Below, piece by piece: positions 1 to 12,138 of a stretch of DNA of 64,000 nucleotides (position 1 is its first letter; the number at the start of each line of letters is the position of its first letter). This stretch comes from Candidatus Binatia bacterium. GTDB taxonomy: Bacteria > Desulfobacterota > Binatia > HRBIN30. Location: positions 124,001 to 188,000 of the forward strand of contig JAKLJW010000001.1 of the NCBI GenBank assembly GCA_023150935.1. The letters are read 5' to 3'. The position numbers and the translations under genes are program-made. Under the pieces are notes generated by a model. It was given only the letters and a program-made list of their open reading frames with translations, was not told the origin of the DNA and searched no databases.

Positions 1-1102
1 GGTCGCACTGCGGATCGGCGACTTCCAGCGTCGCCGTTGCGGGCACGAAGCCGTGGCCGATCGCCAGCACCGTGGCAAGCGCTTCGATCGCCCCGGCGGC
101 GGCCAGACAATGGCCGATCATCGACTTGGTCGAGCTTACCGGCACCATGTCGGCGCGGGCGTCGAGGACGGCCCGCAGAGCACGCGTCTCGAGAACGTCG
201 TTGCTGGGCGTGCCGGTGCCGTGGGCGTTGACGTAGTCGACGGCGCCGGCGTCGATGCGTGCATCCGCCAGGGCCTGCCGCATCGCCTGCAGCATGCCGG
301 CACTGTCCGGCCGACCGTGCGTGATGTGGTAAGCGTCGGCGCTGTTACCGTAACCGAGCACTTCGGCCTGGACGGTAGCGCCGCGCGCACGGGCGTGCTC
401 GAGATCCTCGAGCACGAACATCGCAGCGCCTTCGCCGAGCGTAAGCCCGGCCCGATTGCGGTCGAAAGGACGGCACGGAACCGCGTCGAGGGCCTGCAGG
501 GCGTTGAAGCCCGAGTAGGTCATGCGGCACAGGGAGTCGGCCCCGCCGCAGAGGACGGAGTGCGCCTGGCCCCGGCGGATCCAATCGGCCGCCACACCGA
601 TGGCGTTCGCTCCGGAAGAGCAGGCGGTCGATACCGTGAGGCGCGGGCCGGTACACCGAAATACGTGCGCCAGTTTGTCGGCGCCCACGGACACCGGCAC
701 CGCGAGAATCGCGCTGTGACGGCGCAGCGGCTCGCCGGCCAGCAGGCGGCGATAGTACTCCTCGCCGTCAAACATGCCCCCCGTCGTGGTTCCCAGTACG
801 ACCCCGATCCCGGGGTTATCCCGTTCGGTTGTCGGCAGCCCGGCGCCGGCAAGGGCCTCGTGCGCGGCAGTCAGCGCCAGCAAGTCGGTCCGTGACGCAT
901 GGCGTGCGGTGCCCGGAGCCATCCACGCCGGTGGCCCCGGGTCGTGCACCTCGGCGGCGATGGTGCTGCGATAGCCCGCGGTGCTGAAACAGGTCAGCGG
1001 ACCGATCGCGCAACGTGCCGAGCGCAAGCCGGCAAGGAATGCCGGGACGCCGGCGCCGAGAGCGTTTATGCTGCCGGCGCCCGTGACCACCACCCGTCGC
1101 AT
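1..1102 (-). CDS. Beta-ketoacyl-ACP synthase (FabF-type), 3' end outside window
   Basis: Condensing enzyme of fatty-acid or type II polyketide synthesis; cytoplasmic. The frame opens at an ATG at 1102 (RRVVVTGAG follows) after an AGGAA-type ribosome site and stays open to the left edge, so about 367 residues are visible and the last ~40 are missing. The Cys-His-His triad is intact: C161 in STACSSG, H294 in NAHGTGTPSND, H331 in TKSMIGH; the GEGAA motif is present. It is the last visible gene of a six-gene minus-strand operon, 60 bp after the acyl carrier protein. It probably acts on acyl chains carried by that protein. FabF-type is chosen over FabB from the overall motif pattern; the substrate cannot be read. 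Confidence 0.9.
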   Translation of the reverse strand, partial: MRRVVVTGAGSINALGAGVPAFLAGLRSARCAIGPLTCFSTAGYRSTIAAEVHDPGPPAWMAPGTARHASRTDLLALTAAHEALAGAGLPTTERDNPGIGVVLGTTTGGMFDGEEYYRRLLAGEPLRRHSAILAVPVSVGADKLAHVFRCTGPRLTVSTACSSGANAIGVAADWIRRGQAHSVLCGGADSLCRMTYSGFNALQALDAVPCRPFDRNRAGLTLGEGAAMFVLEDLEHARARGATVQAEVLGYGNSADAYHITHGRPDSAGMLQAMRQALADARIDAGAVDYVNAHGTGTPSNDVLETRALRAVLDARADMVPVSSTKSMIGHCLAAAGAIEALATVLAIGHGFVPATATLEVADPQCD

Positions 1103-1162
1103 GCTGTTCCTGCCTTCGAGAGCGGGATTGGACGGGTCTCCCCTCCGCATCCGACCCGCGGT

Positions 1163-1450
1163 CTATGGCGCCGGCGCTGGCTGCCCCGCCGGCGGCTGGT
1201 GCGCGAGGATGTAATTGGCGAGCGCGTCGATCGACGCAAACGCTTCCTTGCCGGCCTCTTCGTCCGGGATCACGACTCGGTAATGCTCTTCGACCAGGAC
1301 CACCAGTTCGAGTGCGTCGATGGAATCCAGGCCGAGCCCCGCCACAAAGATGGGTTCGCGGTCCCCGATCTCATCCGGCCGGACATCTTCAAGCTTGAGC
1401 CCCTCTACGAGCAGGCATTTCAGCCGTTGCTTCAACTCGTTACGATTCAC
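1163..1450 (-). CDS. Acyl carrier protein
   Basis: 95-residue carrier protein for acyl intermediates. The phosphopantetheine serine is S43 in the motif GLDSIDALEL, in the usual place at the start of helix II; the protein is acidic as expected, with a short Ala/Pro-rich tail (residues 86-95). The start is a GTG at 1450, preceded by AGGGCGGAA. It lies 44 bp after fabG and 60 bp before the second ketosynthase. A dedicated carrier inside the cluster suggests a specialised pathway separate from housekeeping fatty-acid synthesis; DSI instead of the common DSL also fits a non-housekeeping carrier. The specialised role is inference. Confidence 0.92.
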   Translation of the reverse strand: MNRNELKQRLKCLLVEGLKLEDVRPDEIGDREPIFVAGLGLDSIDALELVVLVEEHYRVVIPDEEAGKEAFASIDALANYILAHQPPAGQPAPAP

Positions 1451-1494
1451 GGTTCCGCCCTTCGTGCGTCTCAATCGCAGATAACGACGCGATT

Positions 1495-2265
1495 TCACAT
1501 CATCGTGAGGCCGCCATCCACAGTCAAGGTTGCGCCCGTGATGTAGCGGGCCCGGGGTGACGCCAAGAACGCCACCGCCTCGGCCACGTCCTCCGGTGTG
1601 CCGAAGGTTCCCAGCGGGATCTGCCCGAGGTGACGTTCGCGCACGGCGGCGGGCAACTCGCCGACCAGTGAGGTCTCGATGACGCCCGGGCACACCGCGT
1701 TCACGGTTATCTGGTACCGGGCTACCTCGCGTGCCAGTGACTTGCCGAGGCTGAGCAAGCCGCCTTTCGAGGCGGCGTAGTTGGCGGCGCCCTCGAGGCC
1801 GACCAGCCCGGCCGGCGAGACGATATTGACGATGCGGCCCCAGCGGCGCGCCACCATGGTGCGCAATGCCTGGCGGGTGCAGAGGAAGGCACCGCGAAGA
1901 TTGGTCGCCAGCACCGTGTCCCAGGCGGCTTCGGAGAGGAGCATCAGGTAGCCGTCGCGCGAAACCGCGGCGTTGTTCACCAGGATGTCGACGCCTCCCC
2001 ACCGTTCCTTGACCTGACTGAACATGTCGGCGACCGCGCCGTTGTCGGCGACGTCGGCCTGGACGACGTGCGCCTCCCCGCCGGCGGCCACGATCGCGGC
2101 CGCGGTCGCCTCGGCTTCCGCCGCCGAGCGGGCGTAGTTGACCGCGACCCGGGCCCCGTCGCGCGCCAACGCCAGCGCAACCGCCCGGCCGATACCGCGG
2201 CTCGCGCCCGTGACCAGCGCGCACTTGCCGGTCAAACCCTCCTCGGTCATCGCAGCAGTCGCCAT
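1495..2265 (-). CDS. fabG: 3-oxoacyl-ACP reductase (FabG-type SDR)
   Basis: Short-chain dehydrogenase reducing the beta-keto group made by the ketosynthases, using NAD(P)H. Visible motifs: cofactor loop TGASRGIG (residues 19-26), NNAA (97-100), and the catalytic triad S150, Y163, K167 in NYAASKGG. Length 256 matches the family. The ATG at 2265 has AAGGGA upstream; a second ATG at 2250 would overlap the radical SAM stop codon as ATGA, so the true start may be either. It overlaps the radical SAM gene by 19 or 4 bases, indicating translational coupling within the lipid/polyketide-like operon. The assignment to the family is firm; specificity for ACP substrates is inferred from the neighbours. 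Confidence 0.92.
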   Translation of the reverse strand: MATAAMTEEGLTGKCALVTGASRGIGRAVALALARDGARVAVNYARSAAEAEATAAAIVAAGGEAHVVQADVADNGAVADMFSQVKERWGGVDILVNNAAVSRDGYLMLLSEAAWDTVLATNLRGAFLCTRQALRTMVARRWGRIVNIVSPAGLVGLEGAANYAASKGGLLSLGKSLAREVARYQITVNAVCPGVIETSLVGELPAAVRERHLGQIPLGTFGTPEDVAEAVAFLASPRARYITGATLTVDGGLTMM

Positions 2266-3635
2266 AGCTGTCCCTTGACCCTCCGTTCGCGCAGTCGCCT
2301 GAGAACCTCGATGTTGGTGCGAATTCCCTTGCCCGGGACGATCCAGTTGCGTCGCGCCCGCGCGTGCGCGTCGATTCGGGCGACCAGGTCGTCGCCGAGT
2401 GCCGGCGCCACGTAGAACCGGGGGTAGAGCAGGGTGTCGTCGGGGTCAAGCTGGCCGTCGGCGAGGGCGCGTTCCACCATACCCGTTCCCGGCAGGATAC
2501 GGATCCCGGTCATGGCGATCACTGCCGTCGGCTGCACTTCGTCCATCAGGCCGAGGGTCTGAGTCACCGTCTCCCACGTTTCGCCGGGGCCGCCGAAGAT
2601 AAGGCTGTGACAGAACTTCAGTCCGTAACGGCGGCAGAGTTCCGAGGCCCGCCGTAGATCGTCGACGTCGAATTCCTTCTTCAACGTCGCGATCATCTGG
2701 GGCGCCCCGGAGTCGGTCCCGAACTCGATTGCCTTGCAACCCGAACGGGCCATCAGGTCGCACAGCTCGGCATCGACGAAGCGGGGAGTGAGGTAGCCGG
2801 ACCATTCTATCGACAGGCCGCGGGCGACGATTTCCTCGCAGATCTCCTTGGCGTGCCGCAGCGGTGCGTTGAAGACGTTGTCGACGAAGAACCAGTTGCG
2901 GGCCCCGTGCTCTTCGAGCACCCCCTGCAACTCGTCGACGACGGCCCGCGCGCTGCGCAACCGTATCCGCGAGCCCTCGATCAGCGGGTAGCTGCAGAAG
3001 ATGCACTCGAAGACGCACCCGCGTTTGGTCTGAATGTTCAGGGCGCCCCCGCGCTCGTAATACCCGTGTACATCGAATTGCGACCGCCACGGAACGACGC
3101 CGGTGTCGAGGTGCCCGAGGCGCACGGCCGGCGCGACGCAGACGCCGTTCCCAACGCGCCGGCAGGTGACCGCGGCGGTCGAAGTCAGCTCGGCGCCGCG
3201 CGCGATCCGCTCCAGCACCCAGGGGAAGCTCAGCTCGCCTTCGCCGATTACGCCCACCTCGGCAGCAAGGTGGGCGAGGATCGTTTCCGGCATGACCGTG
3301 AAACCGGCGCCGCCCAACACGATCGGCGCCGCCGTCGACTGCCGGATGCCGTCGACGAGAGCCGCGTAGTCGTCGATGTACGAGGTGTTCTCCGGATAGG
3401 CGGCCGAATCGAGGTTGCGCAGCGAAATGCCGACAACGTCCGGAACCGCGTCGCGCACGGCCGCGGCCACGGCGGCGAGCGGGTTATCGAGGAAACAAAG
3501 GTCGAGAGTATGGACCGCGTGCCCGTGCTGCGAGGCCGCGGCAGCCATGTACGCCGCTCCGAGCGGGAACACCGGGTCGGGTAGCTGTTCCCGGTTGGCG
3601 GAGATGAGCAGCACGCGCAACGACTGCCGGTCCAT
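2247..3635 (-). CDS. Radical SAM protein with B12-binding-like N-terminal domain
   Basis: 462 residues. Residues 1-140 form a cobalamin-binding-like Rossmann domain (GISLRN, VLGGAGFT, GEGELSF), although the classical DxHxxG base-off ligand is not evident. The radical SAM core follows with its cluster motif CX3CX2C at C207, C211 and C214 (RGCVFECIFCSYP). This architecture is shared by BchE-like and methyltransferase-like B12 radical SAM enzymes. Such enzymes methylate or rearrange unactivated carbons. Being embedded between ketosynthase-like and fabG genes, with 6 bp and overlapping junctions, it probably modifies the acyl chain on the carrier or the released product. The actual reaction is unknown. 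The start ATG at 3635 begins DRQSLRVLLISAN. Confidence 0.85.
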   Translation of the reverse strand: MDRQSLRVLLISANREQLPDPVFPLGAAYMAAAASQHGHAVHTLDLCFLDNPLAAVAAAVRDAVPDVVGISLRNLDSAAYPENTSYIDDYAALVDGIRQSTAAPIVLGGAGFTVMPETILAHLAAEVGVIGEGELSFPWVLERIARGAELTSTAAVTCRRVGNGVCVAPAVRLGHLDTGVVPWRSQFDVHGYYERGGALNIQTKRGCVFECIFCSYPLIEGSRIRLRSARAVVDELQGVLEEHGARNWFFVDNVFNAPLRHAKEICEEIVARGLSIEWSGYLTPRFVDAELCDLMARSGCKAIEFGTDSGAPQMIATLKKEFDVDDLRRASELCRRYGLKFCHSLIFGGPGETWETVTQTLGLMDEVQPTAVIAMTGIRILPGTGMVERALADGQLDPDDTLLYPRFYVAPALGDDLVARIDAHARARRNWIVPGKGIRTNIEVLRRLRERRVKGQLWRLLR

Positions 3636-3641
3636 CGCCGA

Positions 3642-4898
3642 TCACCCCGCGCTGTCGAGCACCACTGCCACGCTCGTTCCGGAATAGCACAGGCCGTGGA
3701 TCATCGCCGATCGCGCGCGGGCGAGCCGATCGGCCACGCGGGTGGCCGGTCGCACCCCGGAGTCGGCCGCGATCTCGACGGCAAGCGCGTCGATCGACCG
3801 TGGCCGAGGCGGGTTCGTCATCAGCCCGGCGGCGAGAACGAACGCGAGCGCGCCGCTGGCGGCGAAGCCGTCGCCCAGTGCGCGCTTGGGCGCGAATACG
3901 AGTGGGGCCGCTGGTGCGGCGGCATACAGACGGCGCAAAGCGGCCGCTTCCACGGCGTCCAGCGGGGTTCCGTGAGCACTGCTCATGACGATGCCCACGT
4001 CGCCCGCCGGTCGCGCCGCCGCGGCCAGCGCCCGACGCAAGACGGCATCGATGCCGGTGGTTTGCCGTTGCCGCTCGGCGAGCGTGGGCTCGAAGCCCGA
4101 AGCGTAACCGGCGACCCGCGCCAGCGGACGGGCTTGTCTGGCGGCGGCGTGCTGCGGCGATTCGAGGACGACGACCACCGCCCCCTCCCCGGGAACGAGC
4201 CCGGGTGCCGCATCCTCGAAGGGCACCGGCACAGAACGTTTCAGCAAGCCCATGTCGTCGAGGGCCTGCAGCAGAGTGGGACCGAGCGCATCGCCGCCCC
4301 CGGCCAGCACCACGTCGGCGCGTCCCAGGTGGATGAGGTCGACGGCACGGCCGATCGCCTGCAAACCGGCGGCGAGTCCGGCGTGCATCGTGGCATTGAC
4401 GCCGCGAATGCCGAGGGCGATCGAGACCTCGCCGGCGGCGGCGCTCGACACCGTGTAGGCGAACAACTGCGGACTGGCTCCAGCGGGTCCGGACTCGATG
4501 ACCTTCTCGAAGTAGGCGGCGTTGGTCAGCAGGCAACCGAGGCCGGTTCCGAACACCAGTCCGACGCGTTCGCTGTTCTCGGCTTGCAGGTCCAGTCCGG
4601 AATCGACCACCGCCCGACTCGCGGCGGCCAGGAAGAGACGGGTGATTCTGTCCATCCGACCCACCCGCCGCAGGGTGCCGGCCGGGATCGCGTCCTGAGG
4701 GATGTCGGCGACCACCGCCGCCAGGGCGCCTTCGCGCCCGGTTCCGGTCACCGGCAGGATGGCGCTTTCGCCGAGTGCGAAGCGTCGGGTCAGTTCGGCG
4801 ACGGAGTGTCCGAGCGGAGAGACGACGCCGGCGCCGGTCACGACGGCGGACATTCCGGACTTCGGTTCTGAGTGCCGCGGGAATTTCATGAGCAGCAT
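3642..4898 (-). CDS. Catalytically degenerate ketosynthase, chain-length-factor-like (KS-beta)
   Basis: 418 residues with a full thiolase/ketosynthase fold signature (VVTGAGVVSPLG, GEGAVVVVLE). Aligned to its two neighbours, the nucleophilic Cys is replaced: the stretch HAGLAAGLQAIG puts Leu175 where TACSSG has Cys. The second His is also lost (ALGDGFAASG, Asp343), whereas the first His (AHGTPLD, H309) remains. In type II polyketide and aryl-polyene systems such an inactive paralogue, the chain length factor, dimerises with the active ketosynthase and sets chain length. Pairing with the active ketosynthase encoded 61 bp upstream is therefore likely. The start may be the ATG at 4898 or the one at 4853 (SAVVTGAG follows). 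Confidence 0.88.
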   Translation of the reverse strand: MLLMKFPRHSEPKSGMSAVVTGAGVVSPLGHSVAELTRRFALGESAILPVTGTGREGALAAVVADIPQDAIPAGTLRRVGRMDRITRLFLAAASRAVVDSGLDLQAENSERVGLVFGTGLGCLLTNAAYFEKVIESGPAGASPQLFAYTVSSAAAGEVSIALGIRGVNATMHAGLAAGLQAIGRAVDLIHLGRADVVLAGGGDALGPTLLQALDDMGLLKRSVPVPFEDAAPGLVPGEGAVVVVLESPQHAAARQARPLARVAGYASGFEPTLAERQRQTTGIDAVLRRALAAAARPAGDVGIVMSSAHGTPLDAVEAAALRRLYAAAPAAPLVFAPKRALGDGFAASGALAFVLAAGLMTNPPRPRSIDALAVEIAADSGVRPATRVADRLARARSAMIHGLCYSGTSVAVVLDSAG

Positions 4899-4959
4899 CC
4901 GCGCGGGTTAGTCTCGAGCGGAAGACATCGGGTATCCGCCGAAAGACCTGGCCCGGGCG

Positions 4960-6246
4960 TCAGACGGCGTGGCGTTCATCTGTCGCGTCGTTGCGGTTCC
5001 CGATCGAGGCGGGAGTCAGATTGCGAAGCACGACGGCGGCGTTGTTGCCGGCGAAGGCGGAAGAGGTCGACAAGGCGCAGCGCACCGGATGCGGCCTCGG
5101 CGCACCCATGACGACGTCCAGGCTGCAGGCCGGATCGAGTTGTTCGCAGTTGAGGGTCGCGGGCACGAGTCCGCTGCGCATTGCCATGACGCACATGATG
5201 GCTTCGAAGCTGCCGGCCGCCGCCAGCGTGTGGCCGATGGCGCCCTTGATCGAGTTGACCGGCACGCTGCCCGCGCGATCGCCGAGAACCGCGGCGATCG
5301 CGGCGCACTCCATGGCGTCGTTGAAGACGGTGCCGGTGCCGTGGGCGCTGACGAAGTCGACGGCGGCGGAATCGGTCCCGGCGTCGCGCAATGCCATGCG
5401 CATGGCGCGGGCGGCGCCGCTGCCGTCTCGGGCCGGGGCGGTCATGTGGGTCGCGTCCCCCGCCATGCCGGTCCCCGCCACTTCGACGGCAACGGTCACC
5501 CCACGCTGGCGCGCATGTTCCAGCGCTTCGACGATAACGACGGCAGATCCCTCGCCGAGCAGTAACCCGGAACGGCGCGCATCGAAGGGCCGGACCACGT
5601 CCGCGGTCGTTGCGCGCAAGCAGTTGAAACCGTTGACGACGAACGGCGACAGCGCCTCCGCGCCGCCGACAATGAAGAGGTCGCCGCGGTCCAGACGCAC
5701 GAAGTCGAGGGCTATCCCGATGGCCTCGGTGCCGGAGGCGCAGGCGATGGACGGACTGAGCACCGGGCCGCGCACGCCGAGGGTCCGCGCCAGCCGGTTG
5801 GCGACATCGTAATAGGGATGGTGCAGCAGGGCGCGAGCGTCGAAACCGCCGCGCGGCCCGGCGGTTTGCGCCAGATAGCGTTCGCCGATTTCCATGCCGC
5901 CAAGGGTGGTACCGAGCAGCACCCCGACGCGGGTCGGGTCGATCGCCGCGAGATCGAGAGCGGCGGCCGCAATCGCCTCGCGGGTTGCTGCCAGCGCGTA
6001 CTGGTCTACCCGGCCGAGCCGTTCCCTTTCCGCCGCGGACAGCCGGTGTTCGGGAATCGGGTCGGCGATTTCGGCTGCCCACGTAACGCTCATCCCGGTA
6101 GTGTCGAAACGGCGAATCGGCGCGCAGCCGCGGCGCCCGTCGAGAAGCGCCTGCCAGAAGGCCGGTAGCGAATTGCCGACGGGTGAAACGACGCCGCAAC
6201 CGGTAATTCCCGCCCGGCGTTTCCGGCTGGAAAAAAACATGCCCAT
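4960..6246 (-). CDS. Beta-ketoacyl synthase (KS-alpha candidate)
   Basis: 428 residues, full-length FabF-type condensing enzyme. The triad is complete: C169 in SIACASG, H302 in SAHGTGTVFND, H339 in KGAIGHTLAAAG; GEGSAV is also present. It is the first gene of the minus-strand lipid/polyketide-like operon and precedes the inactive ketosynthase-like partner by 61 bp, the order seen in KS-alpha/KS-beta pairs. The start could be the ATG at 6246 or 6240; neither has a strong ribosome site. It probably forms a heterodimer with the downstream protein and elongates chains on the cluster's carrier protein. Confidence 0.92.
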   Translation of the reverse strand: MGMFFSSRKRRAGITGCGVVSPVGNSLPAFWQALLDGRRGCAPIRRFDTTGMSVTWAAEIADPIPEHRLSAAERERLGRVDQYALAATREAIAAAALDLAAIDPTRVGVLLGTTLGGMEIGERYLAQTAGPRGGFDARALLHHPYYDVANRLARTLGVRGPVLSPSIACASGTEAIGIALDFVRLDRGDLFIVGGAEALSPFVVNGFNCLRATTADVVRPFDARRSGLLLGEGSAVVIVEALEHARQRGVTVAVEVAGTGMAGDATHMTAPARDGSGAARAMRMALRDAGTDSAAVDFVSAHGTGTVFNDAMECAAIAAVLGDRAGSVPVNSIKGAIGHTLAAAGSFEAIMCVMAMRSGLVPATLNCEQLDPACSLDVVMGAPRPHPVRCALSTSSAFAGNNAAVVLRNLTPASIGNRNDATDERHAV

Positions 6247-6341: not shown

Positions 6342-9068
6342 TCAGAAAGATTGCCGTGTGCCGAAGAGCACCTGCAGCCCTCCGGTGCTGCCGGGGCCAT
6401 GGGCCTCCGTGGCGAACTCGAGATAGGCAACATGGGGGAAGAACCCCATTACCTCGTACATCGCGGCGACGCCGATGCCCACGCCGACAGCGTATCCGGT
6501 GGGGTCGTATATCCGACCGGCGGAGTTACTCACCTGACCGGTGTCGACAAACAGCCGCAACTGCGAGCGCCGCAGAACGATCAGGTCGAAGAAGCTGAGA
6601 TCGATTTCCGGGTAAATCGTCTGCCGTACCTCGGTGCGGAGCAGGAAGATATTGCGTGCGAGTTCCTCCTCCGCGCCGATGCCGCGGATCGATAGGGAAC
6701 CCCCGAGACTGAAGAGCCCCTGCAACGGTACCGCGGTCGAACCCGTGGGCTCAATAAAGCCGTTCACGACCTCGGCGGCGACCACCGTGCGATGCGTCAG
6801 GACGGGATGGGTAAAGCCGGCCGCGGCGCCGAAGCGAACGTAGTCGAAGTTGCTGCCGATTGCGGTGTCGAACCAATCGAGAAACAGGCGGCCGCGCGCA
6901 GACTGAGTCGGGTTGTTGAGGGTCTGCACGGTGGTGTAGTCGTAGCGCGCGCCCAGGGTGTTGACGTGGCCGGCGGTGCGGAGCGACGGGTTTTGCCGGT
7001 CGCGGAATCCGGGGTCGAGAGACTCGATCCCGTAGAAGGCGTACAGGTTGTGCCTGTAGGTATTGGGATCGTTCTGCGGCCCCCAGTGCAGGCGGGGGCC
7101 AAGTGCCGCGCCGATACCGCGGTTCGTGTAGAACCCGGCCAGGGCCAGGTCCTTCGTGTAATCGTAGCGACCGCGCGCGACCACCAACCCGGCGATGGCA
7201 AACTCGGTCGAGGAGACGTCGACAGTGGCGGAATCGAGAACAACCTGTGCGATCGGCGGGCGCGCGTTGTCGGCCCGAGACGTCTCCAGCAGGCGCTGCC
7301 CGGGATCGATTACCGCCTGCCACGGCCGCGCGACCGATGCGATCCGGAGTCGGCCGGTGTCCCCGACGCCGTCCCAGGTGAGGCGCAGAGGCTCGCCACC
7401 GAGAGTCCGCACGGTAACCGGCACCGGCTCCCGGATGGGGCGCGATGACCGCCGCCGCAGCACCAGTTCGCCGGCATAGCCGCCGGCAGGGTCGTGCGCG
7501 GTGCGGAAGTCTGCAATCGAGTAGTTCAGCTTCGGATACGGCTGTACCCATTGCTCGTAGAACTCGTCTAGCCGCAATCCGCTCGCTGACGCGGTGCAGT
7601 GCCGGAAGGGATGCGGGGAGGCAAGACAACGGTCTATGGTTTGCTCGAAGTCCCGGTCGCCGAGTTCCAGATGCAGCTTCCCGAAGATCACGTGTCCGGG
7701 GGGCAGGGCGTTGTTGAACGTCGTGAAGCGGTCGCGCACCTGATCGACTTCCGGCACGCTGTCGAAGAGCGTTTCCGCAAACGGCATCTTCGGTGCGGTC
7801 TCGAAACGGTCGACGATGGCGAAGAAGTTGAACAGATCGATCCATTCGCGGGTGGTCCGAGTCGTCGGATAGATCTGCTTGCGGTAGCGTTCCGCGAGGA
7901 GGTGTGCCTCGCCCTCCCGCACCCAGACGAAATCCCGGGTGGGCTCGCGGGCCGCCAGCGTGGGCCGCAGGACCTCGGCGTACACGGCGCGCGCGAGTTC
8001 GCGGTCGTGAAACGGGTGCAACAGCGGAAACACGTGCAGGGTGCGGTCCGAGATCGCCACCATGCCGTCGCCTTGCGCGGTGAGTTCCCAGCGCAGCGGC
8101 ACCTCGACGACCGCCAGCGAGCGCGGGAAAGGCGGTGTTCCCGGCGGCGGGTTGGCGACGATATTGCGCAGCGCGTCCAGCGTGACCGTGTGCGGGTCGG
8201 GGCCGACGCCGAGTCCGAGGCGATAGGTCAGGCTGGGGGAGCGGGAGAAAAGACTGAGCCGTGTGTTGCCCGCGATGACGTCGTCGCGTCGCAGGTCGGG
8301 TGCGGCCACGAGGGTCAACGCGTGAACAGCGGAGACGTGGGTGTGGATTTCGCCGCGCGGGGCAGGGAAGTAACGGCCGTTGACGAGGACGTCGTTATCG
8401 TCGGGGACGCGCAACGTAAGGTCGTAATCGGCGACCCGCGGCAGCATCTCCGTTGCCCAGGAGCCGTCGGGTTCGAGCGCGGCGACGGCGGGATACCAGC
8501 CGCCGAGGGCGGTGAGCATGCCGTCGGCGACGCCGAAGGTGCCGTAGCGTTGCGGAATGGTGGTGACGAAGTCGGCGGTCAACACGACTCTTCCTCCCGG
8601 CGGAACGGGGTGTGCCGGTAGCACCTCGAGGAAGCACCGCGCCGCTAGGTCGGAAGCCGCAAGTGGCCGCGTCTGCGCGGCTTGGCCCTCGATACGCACC
8701 GCCTCGACGTGCATGGCGCCGGGGCTGAACGCCTCGCGATACCAGATGTAGGGTCGGTTGACGTCGGTAACGGTCGGGTCGGGAGCCGCGAACCGATTCG
8801 GGAACAGGACGAGAACGATGCGATCGAGCGGCTGTGCGGTGGGATTGCTGAACTCCACCGTCGCCTTGCCGCCGATCCGCGGGGGGTCCAGCGAGAGCGT
8901 CGCCTCTATTCGGTAGAGCGGGAGAGCGGCGGTGCCGCCCGCGGCCGCGCCGCCCGCGGCGGTGCCGGGGGCCAGCAGGCCAAGCAGGCCGGCGCAAATT
9001 CCGAGGAAGCGATGTCCTTGCCCGCGCACGTCTCGTCCCGGTTGCGAATCCGCCGATCGCGCCGTCAT
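6342..9068 (-). CDS. Outer-membrane protein: M1-peptidase-like N-terminus fused to Omp85/surface-antigen-like barrel
   Basis: 908 residues. Residues 1-45 hold a signal peptide. Residues ~50-500 resemble the beta-sandwich and catalytic region of M1 aminopeptidases, but I find no HExxH zinc motif, so peptidase activity is doubtful. Residues ~610-908 show alternating beta-strands, an Omp85-type motif (LGGSLSIRGIG), the pattern LFVDTGQV and a terminal Phe, all typical of BamA/TamA-like barrels. No POTRA domains are seen; the M1-like part takes their place. It sits 95 bp before the first ketosynthase on the same strand and may be cotranscribed with that operon, which would fit export or surface placement of a product. 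Fold calls are by eye. Confidence 0.65.
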   Translation of the reverse strand: MTARSADSQPGRDVRGQGHRFLGICAGLLGLLAPGTAAGGAAAGGTAALPLYRIEATLSLDPPRIGGKATVEFSNPTAQPLDRIVLVLFPNRFAAPDPTVTDVNRPYIWYREAFSPGAMHVEAVRIEGQAAQTRPLAASDLAARCFLEVLPAHPVPPGGRVVLTADFVTTIPQRYGTFGVADGMLTALGGWYPAVAALEPDGSWATEMLPRVADYDLTLRVPDDNDVLVNGRYFPAPRGEIHTHVSAVHALTLVAAPDLRRDDVIAGNTRLSLFSRSPSLTYRLGLGVGPDPHTVTLDALRNIVANPPPGTPPFPRSLAVVEVPLRWELTAQGDGMVAISDRTLHVFPLLHPFHDRELARAVYAEVLRPTLAAREPTRDFVWVREGEAHLLAERYRKQIYPTTRTTREWIDLFNFFAIVDRFETAPKMPFAETLFDSVPEVDQVRDRFTTFNNALPPGHVIFGKLHLELGDRDFEQTIDRCLASPHPFRHCTASASGLRLDEFYEQWVQPYPKLNYSIADFRTAHDPAGGYAGELVLRRRSSRPIREPVPVTVRTLGGEPLRLTWDGVGDTGRLRIASVARPWQAVIDPGQRLLETSRADNARPPIAQVVLDSATVDVSSTEFAIAGLVVARGRYDYTKDLALAGFYTNRGIGAALGPRLHWGPQNDPNTYRHNLYAFYGIESLDPGFRDRQNPSLRTAGHVNTLGARYDYTTVQTLNNPTQSARGRLFLDWFDTAIGSNFDYVRFGAAAGFTHPVLTHRTVVAAEVVNGFIEPTGSTAVPLQGLFSLGGSLSIRGIGAEEELARNIFLLRTEVRQTIYPEIDLSFFDLIVLRRSQLRLFVDTGQVSNSAGRIYDPTGYAVGVGIGVAAMYEVMGFFPHVAYLEFATEAHGPGSTGGLQVLFGTRQSF

Positions 9069-9201: not shown

Positions 9202-10530
9202 TCAGTCGCAGCCCGCCAGCGAGCGGTTCACTGCGGTCAGCAGTTCGGCGACGTCGACCTGGCCATCGGCGCCGATGTCGAGACTCATGCAGGCGGTCAG
9301 CGGTGCGTAGCCGAGAGCGACGTTTACCGCGTAGACGATCTCGTCGATGGTCACGTCGCCGCTGCCGTCGCAGTCGCCGTGGCAGGTGTCGGCCGCGAAC
9401 GGGTCGCTGAAGCGCGGATCGGTCAGGAAGGTGTTGTCGGTAAGGCTTTCGAGAAACGCGATGAGGTCGGCTTTCTCCTGTGCGGTCAAGCTGAACCCGA
9501 CCAGCAGATCGCTTTTCAGCGGGCTGGCGCTTCCGACTCCGGCGTAGGGTCCCTCGGCGATCGTGCGGCCGCCGGCGGCGTAGTGGTCGATGACCTCGTC
9601 GAGGGTTGCGATACTGCCGTCGTGCATGTACGGCGCGGTGACGGCGATGTTGCGCAGTGTCGGCGCCTTGAAGCGGCCCATGTCATCGGCCTTTCCGGTG
9701 ACGGCCGCCGCGCCGGTATTGTCGGGTGGGTAGGCGCCGCGGCCGTCGAGATTGTAGAGGCCGGTGTTGTGAAAAGCGGCGCCGACAACGGGTTGGCCGC
9801 CGTGTCCGAGGGTGCCGGAAAAGTTGAACCCGCCATGGCAGTGGAAGCACTCCAGCCGTTCGGAGAAGAAGAGCCGGCCGCCGCGCACCGCCGCCGGTGA
9901 GAGGGCGTTGGGATCGATGCCGTTGACGAACCGGTCGTAGGGGGCGTTGCCGGAGAGCAGCGTGCGTTGGAAGGCGGCCAGCGCTCTGGTGACGTTGACC
10001 GGCGAGATGGGCTCGGCATCGGCGGGGAAGGCGGTCTGAAAGAGTTCCGGGTAGCGGCGGTCCTCGCGCAGGCGCCGCAGCAGTTCGTCCTCGTGCCCGC
10101 CCATGCCGAGAACGACGGGGTCGGAGCCGAAAAGAGCGACCGGCGCCTGTGCTTCGAGGCTGCGCAGGTCCGGATTCGCCCACTCGAAGGTCGAGAGGTA
10201 GGCGACGTTGGCAATGCTCAAGGAGCCGCGCGGGTGTCGGGTGCCGGTCGATCCGAGGGCGTGGGCGCGGCCGTCGGTGAAGGCGAGCGGCTGAAGGTGG
10301 CACGTGCCGCAGGATTGAGTCAGGTTCCACGACAGGCGGCGGTCGTAGAAGAGGCGCCGGCCGAGTTCGACCTTTTCGATGGTCATGGGGTTATCCGCCG
10401 GGACCCCGGGGGCGGGGAACCCGGGCGGCAGATTCCACACATAGGGGGTCGCCGCCGGAGCGGTCGGGGCGGCCATTGCGACGAGCAGGGCCGCGAGCGC
10501 CGCCACCCGGCTAGCCGTCGGTTTCCTCAT
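9202..10530 (-). CDS. Diheme cytochrome c peroxidase/MauG-like protein with dockerin-like EF-hand tail
   Basis: 442 residues from the ATG at 10530 (RKPTASRV follows), which has AGAGGAA upstream and gives a clean signal peptide ending at APAA. Two c-heme motifs: SCGTCH (about residues 73-78) and CFHCH (228-232), the spacing of the bacterial CCP/MauG family; the protein acts in the periplasm or at the surface. The C-terminal ~60 residues are an addition not found in ordinary CCPs: two EF-hand-like loops ([14 protein letters not shown] and [14 protein letters not shown]) ending in Cys, as in dockerin-type calcium modules. The same module starts the surface protein at 16709. The electron donor and substrate are unknown. 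Confidence 0.88.
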
Positions 10531-10739
10531 GATCGCAGTGTTCCTCTCGCCTCGTAGCGTCGTAGCGCCGGGTCGGCCCTTTGCAAGCTGCCGCAAGACG
10601 CGGGTTAACGCCGCAACTCACCAGCCAGCCGGCGGCGGACCGAACCAGAACGCTGTCCGGCTGGTCGCCCGATCCCGTGGCGCCGGTGTGGTGGAGCGTC
10701 CTGTTCGGCATTTCCCTGGCAAGCAAGTTCCCCTCGGGG

Positions 10740-11046: not shown

Positions 11047-12138
11047 GTGGCGGAGAGCTACGGCGATAGCGATGGGATGCGGCGGTTTCTGCCGGCGCGC
11101 TTGCGGCCGTTGTTCGCGGAGAACCGGCATGTTACCCCCCGCCGGTTCTTTAACTATCTGCTGCTGCATCTCGAGATGCGGCTGGGGCGTTCCCGGCTTC
11201 TGTCCAGACCCTACGAGATCTGCATCGACGTCAGCAACAAGTGCAACCTGGCGTGTCCTTTCTGTCCGACCGGCCGGCGGGAGAGCGGCCGTGGCAAGGG
11301 GAGCATTTCTTTCGACAACTTCGCTTCGATCGTGGACGAGCTGGCGCCTTACGCGTTTAGCCTCGAGCTTTTCAACTGGGGCGAGGCGTTCTTCAACCGC
11401 GAGTTGCCGCGCCTGATTGCGCATGCCCGCCGGCGCCGGCTGGTTACTGTCGTCTCCAGCAATCTGAGCTTCAAGTTGAGCGAGCAAACCGTTAGAGAGA
11501 TCGTCGCCAGCGGTTTGACCCACCTGACCGCATCGGTGGACGGGGCCGACCAGGGGTCGTACGAGGTCTACCGGCGCGGCGGCCGGTTCGATCTCGTCAT
11601 GGACAATTTGCGCGCGTTCGTGCGGCTCAAACGCGAAACCAACAGTCCCTTTCCGATTCTCAACTGGGTGTACCTGATATTCGCGCACAACGAGGATCGC
11701 GTCGAGGACGCGCGGCGGCTGGCGCAGGAGATCGGAGTGGACCGGTTTGCGGCGCGCGGCGGACTTTACGACGATCCGAGCTGGGCGCCGAGGCAGGCGC
11801 AGCCGGTGCCGTATCTGGCGCAGGAGCCCGATCGCTGCGTGCACTTGTGGAAGAAGGCGGTGTTTCACTGGGACGGGGGCGTGGCTTCCTGCTGTAACGG
11901 CTTTCACGAGAAGGACGATTTCGGCGCCTGGCGTCCGGGTGCCTTCGGGCGGATCTGGAACAACGAGAAATTCGTGGCGGCGCGCCGAATATGGACGCAA
12001 CCGGAATCCCCTTTGCCGGAAGGCCATTTCTGCGTCGACTGCGAGTGGGTGCGTATGTATCGCCGCCTGCCGCCGCGCGGGGATCGCCTCGCCGGCGCGC
12101 CGAGATCCTCCGGGGGCGGCGAGGCGATTGGCGAATAG
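11047..12138 (+). CDS. Radical SAM protein with SPASM-like C-terminus
   Basis: 363 residues. The radical SAM cluster motif is CX3CX2C at C66, C70, C73 (KCNLACPFCPTG). The C-terminal part has further Cys residues (RCVHLW, ASCCNGF, FCVDCEW), typical of a SPASM/twitch auxiliary-cluster domain. The family modifies peptides, lipids or sugars. The neighbouring genes (diheme peroxidase divergent, RegBA-like pair convergent) do not reveal a substrate, and no precursor peptide gene is seen next to it. The first start is a GTG at 11047; the ATG at 11077 (RRFLPARLR) is an alternative. Confidence 0.85.
   Translation: MAESYGDSDGMRRFLPARLRPLFAENRHVTPRRFFNYLLLHLEMRLGRSRLLSRPYEICIDVSNKCNLACPFCPTGRRESGRGKGSISFDNFASIVDELAPYAFSLELFNWGEAFFNRELPRLIAHARRRRLVTVVSSNLSFKLSEQTVREIVASGLTHLTASVDGADQGSYEVYRRGGRFDLVMDNLRAFVRLKRETNSPFPILNWVYLIFAHNEDRVEDARRLAQEIGVDRFAARGGLYDDPSWAPRQAQPVPYLAQEPDRCVHLWKKAVFHWDGGVASCCNGFHEKDDFGAWRPGAFGRIWNNEKFVAARRIWTQPESPLPEGHFCVDCEWVRMYRRLPPRGDRLAGAPRSSGGGEAIGE

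Follow-up and report, generated by a model that had tools for sequence, protein, structure and literature searches.

In Kuenenia stuttgartiensis, the genes kuste2802-2805 encode an ACP synthase, a SAM radical/B12 enzyme, a FabF and a non-canonical FabB (PMC2649909, PMC4790861), so the core trio of ketosynthase (KS), inactive KS and B12-binding radical SAM protein that we consider here is not new. Export of the aryl polyene (APE) of E. coli relies on LolA-like, RND and LolB-like components (PMC8253772). In nosiheptide biosynthesis, NosL acts first, followed by adenylation by NosI and then by the carrier NosJ (PMC5585349). The locus described below resembles each of these systems in part. It shares with kuste2802-2805 an active FabF, a non-canonical FabB that lacks the active Cys, a B12-binding radical SAM protein and a carrier-protein-related gene, but it has two KS/chain-length-factor (CLF) pairs, export genes and a NosL-like gene, and no desaturase was seen in it. 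The APE cluster of E. coli CFT073 has in common with it a KS/CLF, a ketoreductase (KR), a dehydratase (DH), an ACP, an AMP ligase and an acyltransferase, along with LolA-like, RND (MMPL) and lipoprotein genes for outer-membrane export (the lipoprotein here is recognised by a lipobox and a weak LolA_like match); APE differs in its ordinary SAM methyltransferase ApeB, thioesterase, two ACPs, ApeG and 4-hydroxybenzoate starter, and in having no radical SAM or NosL gene. With the nosiheptide side-ring pathway the locus shares the series of NosL-type enzyme, adenylating ligase and carrier protein, the ligases being likened by role and not by direct comparison; there the acid is joined to a peptide, whereas we propose extension by ketosynthases.

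The overall kind of pathway, type II synthesis of the aryl-polyene/flexirubin/ladderane kind with export to the envelope, is known; the linkage to NosL is new, and in the open-access literature we found no report connecting NosL relatives with aryl polyenes, with ladderanes or with type II PKS. An earlier note on this DNA had rightly named aryl polyene and ladderane clusters as relatives; its further remark that the combination matched no cluster it could name was too strong, given the TIGR04072 membership of the radical SAM protein and the published Kuenenia set.

A thirteen-gene minus-strand run with two ketosynthase pairs

The window, which is the whole 64,000-nucleotide stretch that was analysed, corresponds to contig C1:124001-188000; positions beyond its left edge are given in the left extension L001 (C1:114001-132000). 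Six minus-strand genes reported by the earlier note (a KS, an inactive KS-like partner, a B12-radical SAM protein, a ketoreductase, an ACP and a second KS) are present as open frames where it placed them, and its intergenic distances of 61, 6, an overlap of 19, 44 and 60 bp are reproduced, the last when counted from a KS3 start at 1102. In NCBIfam and Pfam profile searches the core genes match their families far above chance. These six make up half of a 13-gene minus-strand run of 16,085 bp (C1:116984-133068) that extends 7 kb to the left of the window and gains an Omp85 gene on the right. Its genes are co-directional, with a largest gap of 95 bp and overlaps at six of the last seven junctions. 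The features are as follows.

Window 6342..9068, minus: Omp85-superfamily outer-membrane protein, 908 aa, Omp85 domain C-terminal (PF01103, 3e-11)
Window 4960..6246, minus: KS1, FabF-type ketosynthase, KS-alpha of pair 1 (TIGR03150, 358 bits)
Window 3642..4898, minus: KS-beta, chain-length-factor-like partner of KS1 (profile matches, alignment)
Window 2247..3635, minus: rSAM, B12-binding radical SAM protein, TIGR04072 rSAM_ladder_B12, TsrM-like fold (377 bits)
Window 1495..2265, minus: KR, SDR ketoreductase, FabG/FlxB-like (TIGR01830, 284 bits, cut-off 298; flexirubin FlxB, 241 bits)
Window 1163..1450, minus: ACP (PF00550; DSI phosphopantetheine site, motif GLGLDSIDALELV)
Window 1..1150 (cut by the edge; complete at L001:9888-11150), minus: KS3, ketosynthase (TIGR03150, 394 bits)
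L001:8660-9895, minus: KS4, inactive KS (alignment)
L001:8025-8663, minus: LolA-like protein (profile match; resembles flexirubin LolA2)
L001:7594-8028, minus: FabZ-like dehydratase (profile match)
L001:6836-7597, minus: putative lipoprotein (lipobox and weak LolA_like match only)
L001:4365-6839, minus: MMPL exporter (profile match)
L001:2984-4381, minus: PaaK-like ligase (profile match; SGTTG motif)
L001:1617-2900, plus: NosL-like gene, convergent to the operon and outside it

The Omp85 gene lies 95 bp upstream of KS1, and we count it in the operon because its relatives directly precede the ACP in genome G006 (L095) and rSAM in genome G464 (L135). Its long N-terminal part resembles, by eye, an M1-peptidase-type beta domain and has no Pfam match there. 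Beside the cluster lie a di-haem cytochrome c peroxidase/MauG gene (window 9202-10596, minus) and a SPASM radical SAM gene (window 11047-12138, plus) that reaches no NCBIfam cut-off; genome-wide, G000 has 77 Radical_SAM matches, with dense radical SAM gene arrays on contigs C31, C46 and C48.

The alignment of the four ketosynthases resolves two KS/CLF pairs, KS1 with KS-beta and KS3 with KS4. The Cys-His-His triad is intact in KS1 and KS3, while KS-beta carries Leu in the Cys column and Asp in the second His column, and KS4 has Glu for Cys and has lost both His. In G006 the counterparts of KS1 and KS-beta are fused into one 901-aa frame (L054:4094-6799, minus), a fusion which suggests that the two would work as a heterodimer. 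The top PDB matches of KS1, KS3, KS4 and the PaaK-like ligase are the recent entries 9s5h (chains B/C) and 9s3l_A, whose close codes may mean that they come from one related pathway.

Could such genes simply serve housekeeping type II fatty acid synthesis? KS1, KS3, KR (which has both the Gly-rich motif and YxxxK) and the dehydratase each resemble an enzyme of that pathway, but the TIGR03150 scores of KS1 and KS3 are both under the FabF equivalog cut-off of 494, two of the ketosynthases are inactive, the run includes rSAM, MMPL, LolA, ligase and Omp85 genes, and the gene set is patchy between close relatives. We regard housekeeping synthesis as very improbable, and the same scores, inactive ketosynthases and patchiness bear out the earlier view of the operon as dedicated to a type II lipid or polyene.

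The earlier note had also predicted further genes to the left. A dehydratase, export genes and an acyl ligase are there, with an LpxL-type acyltransferase farther left; a glycosyltransferase and a thioesterase were not seen there. The acyltransferase belongs to a second minus-strand run (L143) beyond the NosL-like gene and divergent from it, which also encodes an XrtA-type polysaccharide deacetylase, an HpnL-like flippase, an ICMT-like methyltransferase and a second B12-radical SAM protein. The last of these (L143:2568-4085, minus; C1:111568-113085) is HpnJ-like at 199 bits, below the cut-off. Similar flippase and deacetylase neighbours occur in L124.

The B12-binding radical SAM protein

The rSAM protein has PF02310 and PF04055 domains, with CX3CX2C at residues 207-214, and matches TIGR04072 ('lipid biosynthesis B12-binding/radical SAM protein') over residues 7-459 at 377.2 bits, above the curated cut-off of 360. 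At its own locus and in many relatives the TIGR04072 gene sits among lipid-type KS, KR, ACP or DH genes; in families f4 and f115 it is located outside the KS block. Across the phylum, 148 of 395 sampled genomes have TIGR04072-like genes (E <= 1e-60), and since most of these genomes lack NosL, the substrate of such enzymes need not be indolic.

The closest PDB fold to the AlphaFold model of rSAM (mean pLDDT 92.8) is TsrM, a tryptophan C2-methyltransferase, with Z 38.7 and rmsd 2.2 over 451 residues, followed by AprD4 with Z 29.6. Identity to TsrM is 28%, and the score in the TsrM family TIGR04428 is 164 bits, below its cut-off of 500. In TsrM, Arg69 blocks the lower cobalt face (PMC8992657); its counterpart by hand count on the alignment, Arg73 of rSAM, does not vary across the 59 sequences. 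The TsrM iron ligand Glu273, in contrast, corresponds to Val254 in rSAM, and 57 of 59 relatives have Ile, Val, Ala or Thr there; rSAM may therefore work by a mechanism other than that of TsrM. A TsrM-like non-radical mechanism was considered on account of the invariant Arg and may apply, though less surely because Glu273 is not kept. The modelled fold makes a methyltransferase the likely role of rSAM, and so points away from the radically modified chain that the earlier note had imagined.

Membership in TIGR04072 also bears on a ladderane-type or polyunsaturated-hydrocarbon pathway, in which rSAM would act on a polyene acyl-ACP with no aromatic ring, by radical cyclisation or other chemistry of the chain. 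Kuste2803 has been proposed for cyclisation (PMC2649909), the KS, inactive KS and rSAM are as in kuste2802-2805 (PMC4790861), and 'ladderane' clusters are annotated across many non-anammox phyla (PMC9902471). Ladderanes themselves, however, are not known outside anammox bacteria, and Desulfotalea, which has similar clusters, yielded none. None of the cluster genes identified is phytoene-desaturase-like (as are kuste3336 and 3607), a gene that kuste2802-2805 itself also lacks, and such a route leaves the linked NosL and aryl-ligase genes without a role. We consider it unlikely.

The NosL-like gene and its linkage to the cluster

Several comparisons place the NosL-like protein nearer to NosL than to its relatives. 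A PDB sequence search gives 208 bits to NosL, 96 to HydG and 93 to ThiH; in the tree it groups with NosL, with ThiH and HydG split off at 100/99 (the three reference branches are long); and its model (pLDDT 80.7) aligns to NosL with Z 47.3, as against 38.3 to ThiH. In the MIA-synthase model TIGR04158 it scores 223.8 bits, short of the curated cut-off of 400, and we treat it as a relative and do not class it as an MIA synthase. Counterparts of NosL Tyr90, Arg323 and Ser340, which we take to be the NosL residue numbers and which were hand-counted on the alignment, are all present; Y119 and R355, the counterparts of the Tyr and Arg, are invariant in 13 relatives, and the Ser is Thr in the f4 relatives. 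Because the conserved Tyr, Arg and Ser are common to ThiH and HydG, and because the score is 224 against 400, tryptophan is not proved as the substrate. Tyrosine cleavage of the ThiH type was rejected as a first choice, as tree, fold and score all side with NosL.

We then ask how tightly this gene is tied to the operon. A search of 148 genomes belonging to the class gave 17 with the NosL-like gene (E <= 1e-50), 15 with rSAM (E <= 1e-90; the one in G526 is only 37% identical) and 19 with the PaaK-like ligase (E <= 1e-60). The ligase is present in 17 of the 17 NosL genomes and rSAM in 14 of them. Fisher tests by genome, which ignore the relatedness of genomes, give p = 2e-20 for NosL with ligase and 7e-16 for NosL with rSAM; by genus, again ignoring phylogeny, they give 3e-11 and 4e-12. 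Of the 7 genomes in family f1, just G000 and G006 carry NosL and rSAM, and G004 has the ligase alone; of the 5 in f109, G461 is the only one with all three. The three genes thus come and go together inside families, with a patchy distribution.

Physical linkage follows the same lines, with PaaK or KS4 next to NosL at most loci. In G000, G454, G455, G456, G098 and G464 the immediate neighbour of NosL is PaaK, while in G461, G462, G463, G482, G483 and G485 a distance of 4 bp to 2.3 kb separates NosL from KS4; in G524 a different AMP-binding gene adjoins it. A contig search returned a single relative at 67% (L053), whose gene content is that of G485:C328 and which we take to be the same contig. 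In two other families, flavin-dependent genes lie near NosL or rSAM (L130:16316-17587, which matches Trp_halogenase PF04820, and L058:10487-11815, recognised by eye only); halogenated product variants are possible there.

This linkage has to be weighed against an ordinary aryl polyene or flexirubin-type operon whose product would have a benzenoid head, such as 4-hydroxybenzoate; the NosL-like gene would then feed something else, and rSAM would replace the SAM-dependent ring methyltransferase ApeB. The set of KS/CLF, KR, DH, ACP, AMP ligase, LolA-like, MMPL and lipoprotein genes does resemble that of E. coli APE, the KR is similar to FlxB and the LolA-like protein to LolA2 of the flexirubin pathway, and the nearest named ligases use aryl acids (BagE/FevW at 157 bits; PaaK-like structures). 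Against it stand the ligase found in every NosL genome and the genome's own content: a search covering two sources of the 4-hydroxybenzoate type, aromatic ammonia lyase (PF00221) and UbiC-type chorismate lyase (PF04345), found neither. We judge a benzenoid head somewhat doubtful.

A proposed pathway to an aryl-headed lipid

Our leading reading, which we hold tentatively and at a little under an even chance, is that the operon makes and exports an aryl-headed polyene-type lipid. From the observed gene content, gene order, catalytic motifs, family membership and conserved linkage, we infer its substrates, its products and the order of its steps. The order NosL-NosI-NosJ of nosiheptide serves as the model for the starter logic and E. 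coli APE as that for the export logic. The NosL-like radical SAM enzyme would cleave an aromatic amino acid (tryptophan is the likeliest) to an indole-2-carboxylic acid, and the adjacent PaaK-like ligase would adenylate the acid and load it on the ACP. KS1 with KS-beta, KS3 with KS4, the KR and the FabZ-like dehydratase would then extend it with malonyl units to a conjugated chain, and the TsrM-like TIGR04072 enzyme probably methylates the ACP-bound ring or chain. Finally, the LpxL-type acyltransferase, the LolA-like protein, the lipoprotein, MMPL and Omp85 would attach the lipid and carry it to the outer membrane; the L143 run, including that acyltransferase, may have a part in the pathway.

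The linked NosL-like gene suggests that the ring comes from tryptophan, and we infer a starter that is either an indolic acid made from tryptophan or some other aryl acid. The specific version, an indole-headed polyene lipid with a NosL-type tryptophan lyase supplying the starter, methylation by the TsrM-like rSAM and outer-membrane export, is possible, though we lean on it less than on the aryl-headed reading.

The link between TIGR04072 enzymes and ladderane synthesis is more than 15 years old and, to our knowledge, has no known reaction behind it. The NosL and aryl-ligase context gives these enzymes a class of substrates that can be tested, aryl or indolyl chains bound to a carrier, and the cluster allows such a test independently of slow anammox cultures. 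If the proposed first step is true, synthesis of a membrane lipid would begin with a radical tryptophan lyase, an enzyme known from thiopeptides, and aryl polyene-like pathways, which are very widespread, would gain a new type of starter.
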